A stretch of 64,000 nucleotides of DNA from Chlamydiota bacterium (lineage in GTDB: Bacteria; Auribacterota; Tritonobacteria; UBA1439), in contig JAAYCL010000001.1 in the NCBI GenBank assembly GCA_012729785.1, positions 62,001 through 126,000 of the forward strand, written 5' to 3'. Below, piece after piece: positions 38,286 to 41,844 of this stretch; within the stretch, counting starts at the first letter, position 1; every line of letters starts with the position of its first letter. The notes beneath the pieces were generated by a model. It had not been told where the DNA came from. It made no database searches and saw nothing but the letters and a program-made list of their open reading frames with translations. The position numbers and the translations under genes are program-made.

Positions 38286-38316
38286 ACGGTTCCCCGCGCG
38301 GGCGGGGCGTTTTCGC

Positions 38317-38345
38317 TTGCCCCGTCGCGGGCGGGATGCTACCGT
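38317..38345 (+). promoter_or_regulatory. Sigma70-type promoter for the four-repeat protein gene
   Basis: TTGCCC, a 17-base spacer ending TGC, then TACCGT. The start codon lies 27 bases downstream with AAGGAGG between, a complete promoter-RBS set. Confidence 0.65.
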
Positions 38346-38371
38346 GAGGGCTGTTCGCAAGGAGGATCCCC

Positions 38372-40312
38372 GTGCCTGCACGCATCGCCCTCATCCTCGC
38401 TTTCGCGTGGGCCGCGTCTGTCCCGCCGCTTGCCGCCGCCCCGCCCCCCGCGCCCGCCGCGGGGTGCCGCATCGACCTCGACGCGTTTACGGTGGACGGC
38501 GTCGGCCTCCGTTCGTCCGCGGCCGAGGTGCGCGCCGCGCTCGGGGCGCCCGAGGAGGAGCAGCGGATCTCCGGCGTCGTCACCGACGCGGAGCGCGAAC
38601 GCGAACGGGCCTCGACCGACGCCGAGGAGGGGGAGGAGCCGGACGTCCGCGACCCGCAGACGCGGCAGGCGCGGGTCGTCTACGCCTATTTCGCCAAGGG
38701 GATACGGGTCGTCTTCCTCGCGGAGACGATGCGCGTCGAATCGATCGACCTGTACATCAAGGCCCTCCCCCCGTACGCCCGCTTCACCGGCTCGTTCGTC
38801 CAGCCGTTTTCGGTCGAGGTGCGCGAGGCGGACCTGCTCCGCCCCCTCGCCGGCCGGATCTACAAGGACAGCCCCGTCTCCCTCTCCCTGAAAAAGGACG
38901 ACGCCGCGCCGAAACGGGAGACGGCGCTCCTCTCCTTCGGCGTCGAGGGGTGGCTCACCCGGGTGACCTTCTCGTGGGAGGAGAATCTCGAGATCGACTT
39001 CGACCGGCTCAGCGTGGCGGGGATCGGCCCCGGCGACCCCGTCTCGCGCGTGCTCGAGCGCCTCGGCCCCCCCGACCGCCACGCCGTCCGCGCGAAACAG
39101 ACGATCGGCAGGTGGGAGCGGGAGGGGCTGCGGATCCACGCCGGGCAGCATGACGGGCGGGTCTGCCGCATCGTCGTCGCCCTCGCCAGGTTCGACGGCG
39201 GGGCCGCGCAGGGGTTCCCGCTCGCGCAGCGCAAGGACGCGTACCGCGCCCATCTAAAAGACCGGATCTACCAGGAGTCGAGCGCCCGGATATGCGCCTA
39301 TCGGGCGGGGGAGCCGCTGAGCCCGCAGAAGCTGATCCTCAACTTCGACGAGAGCGACCGCCTGAAGTCCGTCGTCATCGACGTCGCGCCGAATGTCGCG
39401 GTCGACCTCGCCTCGTTCGCCATCGGCGGGATCCGCGTCGGGGACCCGGCGAAGAAGGTGCGGAAGGCCCTCGGCTCGCCGAAGAAATGGCGCAGGGCGG
39501 GCAGGCAGGTGATCCTCGGCTACCCGGTCGAGGGGATCCGGGTGCATCTGGAGGACGCGGCGGAGCGCGAGGACGACCGGAAGGCGCCGGAATTTTCCTG
39601 GAAGACGCTGGGCGAGGTGAAAAGGGTGGAGGCGCTGCTCGAGACCTCCCCGCGCCTGTACGGGACCCCGTTCTCGTTCGGGTCCCCGGCGGCGGAGTGG
39701 GAGAAGGAGGCCTCCGCGATGCGTTTCAGCAAAAAGGGGGAGACGCTCTACCTCAGCCCGGACGGGAAACCGCCCGCGCGCGGCGTGGCCGCGCTGGTCG
39801 CGTTCGAGAAGATCGGCTGGCCGCGCGCCGCGATGATCAGGGAGTTCAGCGACGTCCTGATCGACATGAAGAACTTCTCGGTGCACGGGGTCACGCTCGG
39901 GACGCACGCCGACGAGGTGCGCAGACTGCTCGGCAAACCGGAGAGGGCCCGCGTGCTGGAGAAGCAGCACCTGGAGGTGCTGCGCTACCTCGGGAAGGGG
40001 CTCGTCGTCGTGATCGACCGGATGAACCGGGGGGTCTGCAAGATCACGGTCCATATGGACCGGTTCGAGGGCTCGTTCGCGCAGGACCTCTCCCCGGACT
40101 CCAACGCCGACGAGTTCGAGAAGGCGGTCTACGCGCAGATCTACACGCAGGACGAGAAGCGGCTCTGCCTCAGCCGCGACGGGAACCCGCCGGTCTGGGA
40201 GGAGGGGATCGTCAACTTCGGCCTCTCCGGCGAGGTGGACACGATCGTCTTCCAGACGCTCGGCATCAAGAAGGAGGGGATTCTCCTTGACATAACCCGC
40301 GAGCTCGAATGA
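38372..40312 (+). CDS. Exported protein of four tandem ~150-residue repeats, unknown function
   Basis: 646 residues from GTG 38372 with AAGGAGG upstream. A signal peptide (ARIALILAFAWAASVPPLAAA) is followed by four repeats at about 31-204, 205-340, 341-494 and 495-646. Each begins with a strand and a turn like 'DxxxFxVxGxxLGxxxxxVxxxLGxP', recalling the G-x3-V-x3-LG-x-P turn of BamE/SmpA-like folds, and ends with an 'IYxxxxxRLCLSxxGxPP' section and 'FG...V.F..'. Repeat 1 has an inserted Glu/Arg-rich loop (about 75-95). No enzyme motif or membrane helix beyond the signal is visible. It has its own promoter and is followed by a zinc-ribbon gene. BamE-like fold is inference. Confidence 0.8.
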   Translation: MPARIALILAFAWAASVPPLAAAPPPAPAAGCRIDLDAFTVDGVGLRSSAAEVRAALGAPEEEQRISGVVTDAERERERASTDAEEGEEPDVRDPQTRQARVVYAYFAKGIRVVFLAETMRVESIDLYIKALPPYARFTGSFVQPFSVEVREADLLRPLAGRIYKDSPVSLSLKKDDAAPKRETALLSFGVEGWLTRVTFSWEENLEIDFDRLSVAGIGPGDPVSRVLERLGPPDRHAVRAKQTIGRWEREGLRIHAGQHDGRVCRIVVALARFDGGAAQGFPLAQRKDAYRAHLKDRIYQESSARICAYRAGEPLSPQKLILNFDESDRLKSVVIDVAPNVAVDLASFAIGGIRVGDPAKKVRKALGSPKKWRRAGRQVILGYPVEGIRVHLEDAAEREDDRKAPEFSWKTLGEVKRVEALLETSPRLYGTPFSFGSPAAEWEKEASAMRFSKKGETLYLSPDGKPPARGVAALVAFEKIGWPRAAMIREFSDVLIDMKNFSVHGVTLGTHADEVRRLLGKPERARVLEKQHLEVLRYLGKGLVVVIDRMNRGVCKITVHMDRFEGSFAQDLSPDSNADEFEKAVYAQIYTQDEKRLCLSRDGNPPVWEEGIVNFGLSGEVDTIVFQTLGIKKEGILLDITRELE

Positions 40313-40659: not shown

Positions 40660-41844
40660 ATGAGCGAGGAACTCTGTTTCGTCGCGATCAACCCGTACAC
40701 GATACGCAAGTCGCGCACCGGCGGCGTGATCGGGCGCCTCCTGTCGCGTTCGAGCCTCGAACTCGTGGCCGCCAGGATGTACGCCCCCTCGCGGGAGCTC
40801 GTCGAGGAGTACCTCTCGACCATCCCGGCGAGGCGAAACGACCCGGACCGGCAGGTCAGGACACTCATCAGGAACTACGTGCGGCTGAACTACGCCCCCG
40901 GGCCGAATGGGAGCCGCCGCCGGGTGATGTTCCTCCTCTTCAAGGGGCCCAACGCCTGCCGCGAGCTCTCCGAGGTCGTGGGACACATCACCAGGAGCAG
41001 CCTCTCCGGCGAGTGCATCCGGGACACCTACGGGGACTGCATCTGGAGCGGCCGCGGCACCGTGCGGTACTTCGAGCCCGCCGTCCTCATCGTCCCCGCC
41101 GGGGAGGCCCCCGGGCCGTCGCTGCGGATCTGGGGGCGGCACGCGGCGCGCGACGGCGGGCTCCTGACGGACGTCATCCCCTGGCCGAAAGGGGTGCGGC
41201 CCGAGGAGACGACGGTGCTCATCAAGCCCGAGATCTTCAGCTCCCGGAGCATCCGGGCGGGCAACATCATCGACATCTTCTCCAAGGCCGACCTGTACAT
41301 CGTCGCCGCGAAGCTGCTCCGGATGAGCGTGGCCCAGGCCGAGGAGTTCTACGGTCCCGTCCGCGACTCGCTCGCCGAGAAACTGCGGGGGCCGGTCACC
41401 GCCCGCGCCCGGCTCGCGCTCGAGAAGGAGTTCGGCTTCACCCTCCCGGAGGGGACCGCGCGCGGCATCGGGGGCCGCCTGAACCGCCTCGTCGCCGAGG
41501 ACCAGTTCAGGCAGATCGTGCGGTTCATGACCGGGCGTGACGCCGCCTCGACCCCCCCCGCCGAGCGCGACGCGCCCGGGCTCGTGCGGTGCCTCGCCCT
41601 CGTCTACCAGGGGGTGGACGCGGTGCGCAAGATCCGCGCGATCATCGGCGCGACGGACCCGAAGAAGGCGGATGTGGCGACGGTGCGGAAGGAGTTCGGG
41701 AGGGACATCATGGTGAACGCGGCGCACGCCTCCGACTCCCCCGAGAACGCCCGGCGCGAGATGCGGATCATCGACTTCGAGCGCGACGACGTCGGGCCGG
41801 CGATCGAGGAGCACCTCGCCGCGCGTCAAGAGCGGGAGGGGTGA
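40660..41844 (+). CDS. Two-domain nucleoside diphosphate kinase-like protein
   Basis: 394 residues. Residues 1-170 form a first NDK-like domain (LCFVAINPYTIRKSRTGGVIGRLL, MFLLFKGPNACRELSEVVGHI, SGECIRDTYGD) that lacks the NxxH histidine motif. Residues 185-394 form a second domain (TTVLIKPEIFSSRSIRAGNIIDIF ... YQGVDAVRKIRAIIGATDPKKA) with the complete motif N-AA-H356-ASDSPENARREM. NDK transfers gamma-phosphates between nucleotides through that histidine. A helical insertion of about 90 residues lies inside domain 2, so the active site may be modified. ATG 40660 starts the family N terminus. Single-domain NDK is about 140 residues, so this is unusual. Confidence 0.8.
   Translation: MSEELCFVAINPYTIRKSRTGGVIGRLLSRSSLELVAARMYAPSRELVEEYLSTIPARRNDPDRQVRTLIRNYVRLNYAPGPNGSRRRVMFLLFKGPNACRELSEVVGHITRSSLSGECIRDTYGDCIWSGRGTVRYFEPAVLIVPAGEAPGPSLRIWGRHAARDGGLLTDVIPWPKGVRPEETTVLIKPEIFSSRSIRAGNIIDIFSKADLYIVAAKLLRMSVAQAEEFYGPVRDSLAEKLRGPVTARARLALEKEFGFTLPEGTARGIGGRLNRLVAEDQFRQIVRFMTGRDAASTPPAERDAPGLVRCLALVYQGVDAVRKIRAIIGATDPKKADVATVRKEFGRDIMVNAAHASDSPENARREMRIIDFERDDVGPAIEEHLAARQEREG

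Follow-up and report, generated by a model that had tools for sequence, protein, structure and literature searches.

We describe a gene whose product is predicted to be exported and consists largely of four divergent repeats, each of which most likely holds two copies of one small BLIP/BamE-type fold. The explanation that best covers the evidence as a whole, to which we give an even chance, is an exported string of eight units that arose by duplication and would serve as a multivalent protein-binding scaffold in the periplasm; for the scaffold function taken by itself we would put the chance just short of a half. Computation supports the repeats, the orthology, the synteny, the predicted fold, the presence of two units per repeat and a promoter belonging to the gene itself. 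The features are collected in Table 1, in positions of the window, by which we mean the whole stretch of 64,000 nucleotides that was analysed.

Table 1. Features of the four-repeat gene and of the DNA before it
Feature	Positions	Strand	Basis
Terminator-like hairpin after the upstream VanZ-like gene, CCCCGCGCGGGCGGGG then CGTTTTCGCT	38292..38307	+	sequence scan
Promoter CTTGC-N16-TGCTACCGT, equal to TTGCCC-17-TACCGT with extended -10	38316..38345	+	motif conservation
Ribosome binding site AAGGAGG	38359..38365	+	read from sequence
Whole gene, 646 aa, predicted exported four-repeat protein	38372..40312	+	ORF reading, searches, orthologs
Putative N-terminal signal peptide, then a linker rich in proline and alanine, residues 1-32	38372..38467	+	by eye
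Repeat 1, residues 33-206, two predicted units, acidic loop 68-99	38468..38989	+	repeat alignments, full-length model
Repeat 2, residues 207-342, two predicted units	38990..39397	+	repeat alignments, full-length model
Repeat 3, residues 343-494, two predicted units, least conserved	39398..39853	+	repeat alignments, full-length model, ortholog identity
Repeat 4 unit 1, residues 495-563, predicted helix and 4 strands, BamE-like turn GVTLGTHADEVRRLLGKP	39854..40060	+	AlphaFold2, pLDDT about 97
Repeat 4 unit 2, residues 564-629, predicted helix and 4 strands, probable diverged copy of unit 1	40061..40258	+	AlphaFold2, hhalign, ortholog identity
Conserved C-terminal tail LGIKKEGILLDITRELE, residues 630-646, outside the repeats	40259..40309	+	ortholog identity

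Four divergent repeats and their conservation

The reading frame is intact and opens with a GTG codon, preceded by the ribosome binding site that a preliminary description of this DNA had pointed out. The putative signal peptide was read by eye from a hydrophobic segment and an AxA-type region, in the window protein as well as in two of its orthologs (L004 and L005), and residues 1-32 have a pLDDT of 31-33 in the full-length AlphaFold2 model.

It had been proposed that everything after the signal peptide is four divergent repeats of about 150 residues. We cut the protein near residues 207, 343 and 495 into R1 to R4 and scored local alignments of each pair against 1000 residue shuffles, which gave z-scores of 25.6 (R2-R4), 18.0 (R1-R4), 14.6 (R3-R4), 10.8 (R2-R3), 9.1 (R1-R3) and 5.1 (R1-R2). 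Five of the six pairs exceeded all 1000 shuffles, and R1-R2 alone was reached, by a single shuffle in 1000. The self-similarity is thus significant, and since all four repeats are also retained in the orthologs, the proposal of four divergent repeats stands, while the word "only" has to be relaxed: the repeats measure 174, 136, 152 and 135 residues from R1 to R4, R1 carries an extra acidic loop of roughly 30 residues that is modelled with low confidence, and a tail of 17 residues follows R4. This tail has a mean pairwise identity of 69% in five orthologs and a pLDDT of 35-43 in the full-length model.

In a tree of 21 repeats, R1, R2, R3 and R4 each form their own supported clade according to position, which means that the four-copy state predates the split of these genera and that the repeats are old and non-interchangeable. 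Just 3 columns are invariant across all repeats, versus 33-48 per repeat among the five orthologs, and this argues for separate partner surfaces rather than for one repeated active site. Moreover, the repeat alignment contains no catalytic-looking set of residues that recurs through the four domains. The cysteines C308 and C556 are retained in all five orthologs.

Conservation is uneven along the chain. Among the repeats, mean pairwise identity is highest in R4 (61%) and lowest in R3 (44%), and in every repeat the second unit is better conserved than the first, with unit 2 of R4 (65%) at the top of all repeat units. Together with the modular string of domains, the ranking of R4 and the tail above R3 would agree with a protein that is mainly a structural spacer or tether across the periplasm, anchored by its C-terminal repeat and tail. 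We consider such a role very unlikely, as the second units of R1 and R2 (59% and 56% mean identity) are conserved beyond what a passive spacer would need. In a binding scaffold, the C-terminal repeat and the tail would form the main contact.

Predicted fold and the two probable units of each repeat

The preliminary description had likened the opening turn of each repeat to BamE/SmpA proteins, had found nothing that matched the second half, and had suggested modelling a single repeat. The AlphaFold2 model of repeat 4, run with an alignment of 21 repeats, is confident (pLDDT 94.1) and shows secondary structure in the order H-EEEE-H-EEEE, a fold of BLIP/BamE type. In the full-length model, at a pLDDT of 76, this order appears four times over, and the other four models reach 51-65; with mean pLDDT of 51-76 over the five, the arrangement of the repeats relative to one another is unreliable. 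As a helix and four strands occur twice in the model of repeat 4, the second half of each repeat is most likely a diverged second copy of the small fold of the first half; at the level of the fold, the statement that it matches nothing is not upheld. Each repeat being a pair of units, the protein would hold eight BamE/BLIP-like units, each with a helix packed on four antiparallel strands.

Profile comparison points the same way. With hhalign, the unit 1 half and the unit 2 half of the repeat alignment paired over 25 columns in register (DMKNFSVHGVTLGTHADEVRRLLGK opposite RFEGSFAQDLSPDSNADEFEKAVYA) with an E-value of 0.002 and a score of 19.9. None of 300 column shuffles reached this score (maximum 13.9), and the reversed half gave 8.7. 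Yet the hhalign probability is just 14%, in one single test over 25 columns, so the alignment supports common descent of the two units and does not prove it. In a distant relative from outside the phylum (L041) the unit 1 profile signature occurs twice in tandem; in another (L043) the tandem is visible in weaker form, its first copy scoring poorly. An alignment extended with these two relatives was not used, because their second unit fell on unit 1 of the repeats. L043 (1-1548, + strand, outside the phylum) has a protein-kinase-like N-terminus, and its C-terminal BamE-like tandem lies behind an STN-like stretch (sub-threshold in Pfam).

We regard the BLIP/BamE-type fold, with one helix and four antiparallel strands per unit, as highly probable from these models, leaving a small probability to a wholly new fold. 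Foldseek comparison of the repeat 4 model with the PDB gave, among the 50 matches listed, five chains at probability 1.00, namely 4ifa, two chains of 4h0a, 4ygt and 9j9w, with moderate TM-scores of 0.51-0.55; BLIP, OmlA and PepSY structures are absent among these 50. Against viral models, the second match was a phage "CAP-associated protein" model, again at probability 1.00. A beta-propeller suggested by Foldseek for the full-length model was rejected, its TM-score being about 0.1 and its rmsd 19-27 despite E-values of 1e-5 to 1e-3.

Relation to known families

By sequence, the whole protein has no significant match in Pfam, NCBIfam, PHROGs or PDB sequences. A strong match to a characterised family, which had been named as the finding that would speak against a new one, was looked for in Pfam, NCBIfam and PDB sequences; none was found, and whole-protein membership of such a family was rejected. 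The likeness of the opening turn to BamE holds: the Pfam model PF04355 touches R3 with an E-value of 0.069, and the predicted unit of a helix and four strands agrees with it, but the 13.4 bits lie below the cut-off of 23.2, as do the 11.8 bits of the ortholog L003. The CAP-associated N-terminal domain (CAP_assoc_N, PF14504) had no match in the family members or the whole genome, a Bacillus subtilis control being positive, and DUF4309 (PF14172) had none up to an E-value of 10 with whole proteins or of 1 with single repeats. By these searches, the protein falls outside BamE, CAP_assoc_N and DUF4309 as Pfam defines them. A PHAF1 match in L005 (E-value 0.025, 14.3 bits versus 27) was below the cut-off and was set aside.

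The families that the structural matches bring forward resemble the repeats in different ways. The SCP/CAP proteins 4ifa and 4h0a, which we take to carry PF14504, are the best Foldseek matches, align over the whole repeat and share an exported domain of about 140 positions; they hold one such domain next to an SCP/CAP domain, whereas the window protein has neither an SCP/CAP domain nor a PF14504 match. YjgB (4ygt, DUF4309) matches across the whole repeat at a TM-score of about 0.5, but with one domain as opposed to four and with no sequence match. In the literature searched we found nothing on the function of DUF4309 or of the CAP-associated domain. BamE/SmpA/OmlA proteins share the turn GxxxGxxxxxVxxxLGxP and the helix-plus-strands unit, yet BamE, a lipoprotein subunit bound to BamA/BamD, has one unit, as against eight predicted units and no conserved lipobox here.

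The BLIP-like superfamily, comprising BLIP, SmpA/OmlA, PepSY and DUF2874, has been described as secreted or periplasmic proteins built of tandem units of a helix and four strands, one to four units per protein, which are thought to work in the periplasm by binding partners (PMC2954215). The window protein shares the predicted tandem units with BLIP and DUF2874/PepSY, and perhaps the location, but differs in its eight units arranged in pairs and in the lack of a sequence match; no sequence link to the families of the superfamily reaches threshold. On the predicted fold, it represents a new family and a new architecture inside a known superfamily. The earlier designation as an undescribed family thus holds for the sequence, with no match in Pfam, NCBIfam, PHROGs or PDB sequences, and does not extend to the fold superfamily, which is well described (PMC2954215).

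The superfamily also offers a precedent for inhibition (PMC2954215), and the protein might be an inhibitor of secreted or periplasmic enzymes such as hydrolases, penicillin-binding proteins or proteases, in the manner of BLIP or PepSY and with four inhibitory domains per chain. Proteins with a PepSY domain have penicillin-binding proteins and lytic enzymes among their interaction partners (PMC10653890), and the Foldseek match 9j9w (probability 1.00, 112 columns, rmsd 3.4) is the effector-immunity complex TsiN-TseN, for which two folds are described (PMC12574953); from these descriptions, the matched chain A would be the immunity protein TsiN and not the DNase. TsiN-TseN has no sequence relation to our protein, and no effector gene adjoins the window gene. 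The targets of BLIP proper are class A beta-lactamases, which it inhibits. The annotated neighbours include no peptidase, hydrolase, lactamase or toxin, and the repeats have no single conserved contact surface in common. We therefore judge inhibition unlikely.

Further BamE-like proteins came up in the searches. One of them (L029, 1576-2166, - strand, contig 13 of G004) has 196 aa and a tandem of two BamE-like units, adjoins an argininosuccinate lyase-like gene and matches DUF7738 and DUF7256, both below threshold; it was rejected as an ortholog and is a separate tandem protein. The genome of the window holds two adjacent ORFs on contig 42 (L037 and L039), each ending in a sub-threshold BamE-like motif (LPGMTPREVRDAWGWPDLTHPVHG and LVGMTEREARAAWGSPDLTHPVRG), and a lipoprotein-like ORF (VVCGCGTLRTERLKAGMTQDEVTALYGQP; L038, 1215-1758, - strand), also BamE-like below threshold.

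Orthologs and genomic neighbourhood

Within its own genome the protein is unique, with no second copy. In a protein search of 98 genomes, four others from the same family proved to encode full-length relatives (48-62% identity), so that five genomes are known with the multi-repeat form; one of the relatives, at the G003 locus, also exists as a public copy (L007). A further genome of the family (G005), 83% complete, had no match. Another family of the class has a protein of 223 aa with a single repeat (L006; profile E-value 2.7e-32) and a lipobox-like N-terminus (VLCGC). Its gene is located between a VanZ-like gene and a nucleoside diphosphate kinase (NDK) gene, as is the window gene, and because of this context the single-repeat, lipoprotein-like protein is very likely the ortholog of the four-repeat one. 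The remaining 37 of the 44 genomes of the phylum contained nothing comparable. A search with the repeat profile, one of the checks proposed at the outset, covered 384 genomes and outside the class gave only weak and mostly single-unit matches. In the ortholog alignment the four-repeat form has no conserved lipobox. At the end of contig 382 of G001, L002 is unrelated to the other orthologs up to and including the beginning of repeat 1, owing either to a chimeric contig end or to a real rearrangement.

The annotated neighbours in the window are GT9, VanZ-like, DUF5679, NDK and aminotransferase genes. All six genomes have NDK downstream, and four have VanZ upstream; in G001 the contig ends too near the gene to show it. 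The product of the NDK neighbour in the window (40660-41841) has 394 aa, with three stretches that match NDK; HASDSPENA is retained in the C-terminal part, and the N-terminal part, which lacks the catalytic histidine, resembles a degenerate second NDK. NDK of the sister family is ordinary, with 157 aa.

An Omp85 gene is present in the genome, on a different contig, so the cell is probably diderm and a signal peptide would direct the protein to the periplasm, the surface or secretion. We infer a periplasmic location from the signal peptide read by eye and from this gene. Perhaps the protein is an outer-membrane assembly factor, a lineage-specific and expanded BamE-type partner of the BAM complex. 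The BamE-like turn and the sub-threshold BamE match would fit, no BamE above the Pfam cut-off occurs in the genome though Omp85 does, and the gene lies downstream of yajC-secDF in the window and in two other genomes. We hold this to be decidedly unlikely: as far as the flanking stretches were read, neither G003 nor the single-repeat relative shows the linkage to secDF, the Omp85 gene lies on another contig, and the four-repeat form is without a conserved lipobox. Moreover, the genomes searched from other families of the phylum, whose outer-membrane proteins presumably need assembly as well, did not yield the protein, and the genome of the window has other sub-threshold BamE-like proteins.

Promoter

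The promoter that had been proposed for the gene is well supported, because its motif is conserved across genera and stands just after the terminator-like hairpin. In all four genera compared (window, L003, L004 and L005), the start is preceded at a distance of 26-33 nt by the pattern CTTGC-N16-TGNTANNNT; shuffling each stretch of 120 nt gave it at a frequency of at most 1e-4, a value to be taken as a guide only since the pattern was written after seeing the sequences. It has 1 match in the 64 kb window and 0 in shuffles. Over the genome it occurs at 13 sites, whereas the reversed pattern has 0; it thus has the look of a promoter form in general use in the organism, which suggests a common extended -10 promoter of the lineage. 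The hairpin alone is just suggestive, as the terminator scan of its region gave 4 sites against 1.9 in shuffles.

A possible envelope scaffold

Partner binding in the superfamily, the presence of Omp85 and the lack of a recurring catalytic set together favour a multivalent binding scaffold. The protein would be exported by Sec and would act non-enzymatically in the periplasm, each repeat offering its own partner-specific surface. Both the binding function, drawn from the superfamily, and the choice of surfaces that would bind are our inference. Counting against a scaffold, the neighbour that is kept most constantly is NDK, an enzyme of cytoplasmic type, which suggests no envelope partner. The four two-unit domains would have originated by duplication of a single-domain ancestor resembling the sister-family lipoprotein between the VanZ and NDK genes. 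More speculatively, and with rather low confidence, we put forward a lineage-specific envelope scaffold whose eight BLIP-like units would offer four different client sites per chain, and in which duplication made a single-domain lipoprotein a soluble multi-client hub.

The fold is already known, and nothing established is overturned. The protein adds a sequence family without a curated model to an envelope superfamily of mostly unknown functions, and it outlines how, within a single class, a one-domain lipoprotein is likely to have become a four-domain protein. As the single- and four-domain forms can be compared, they may provide a clean case for what tandem BLIP-like units bind.
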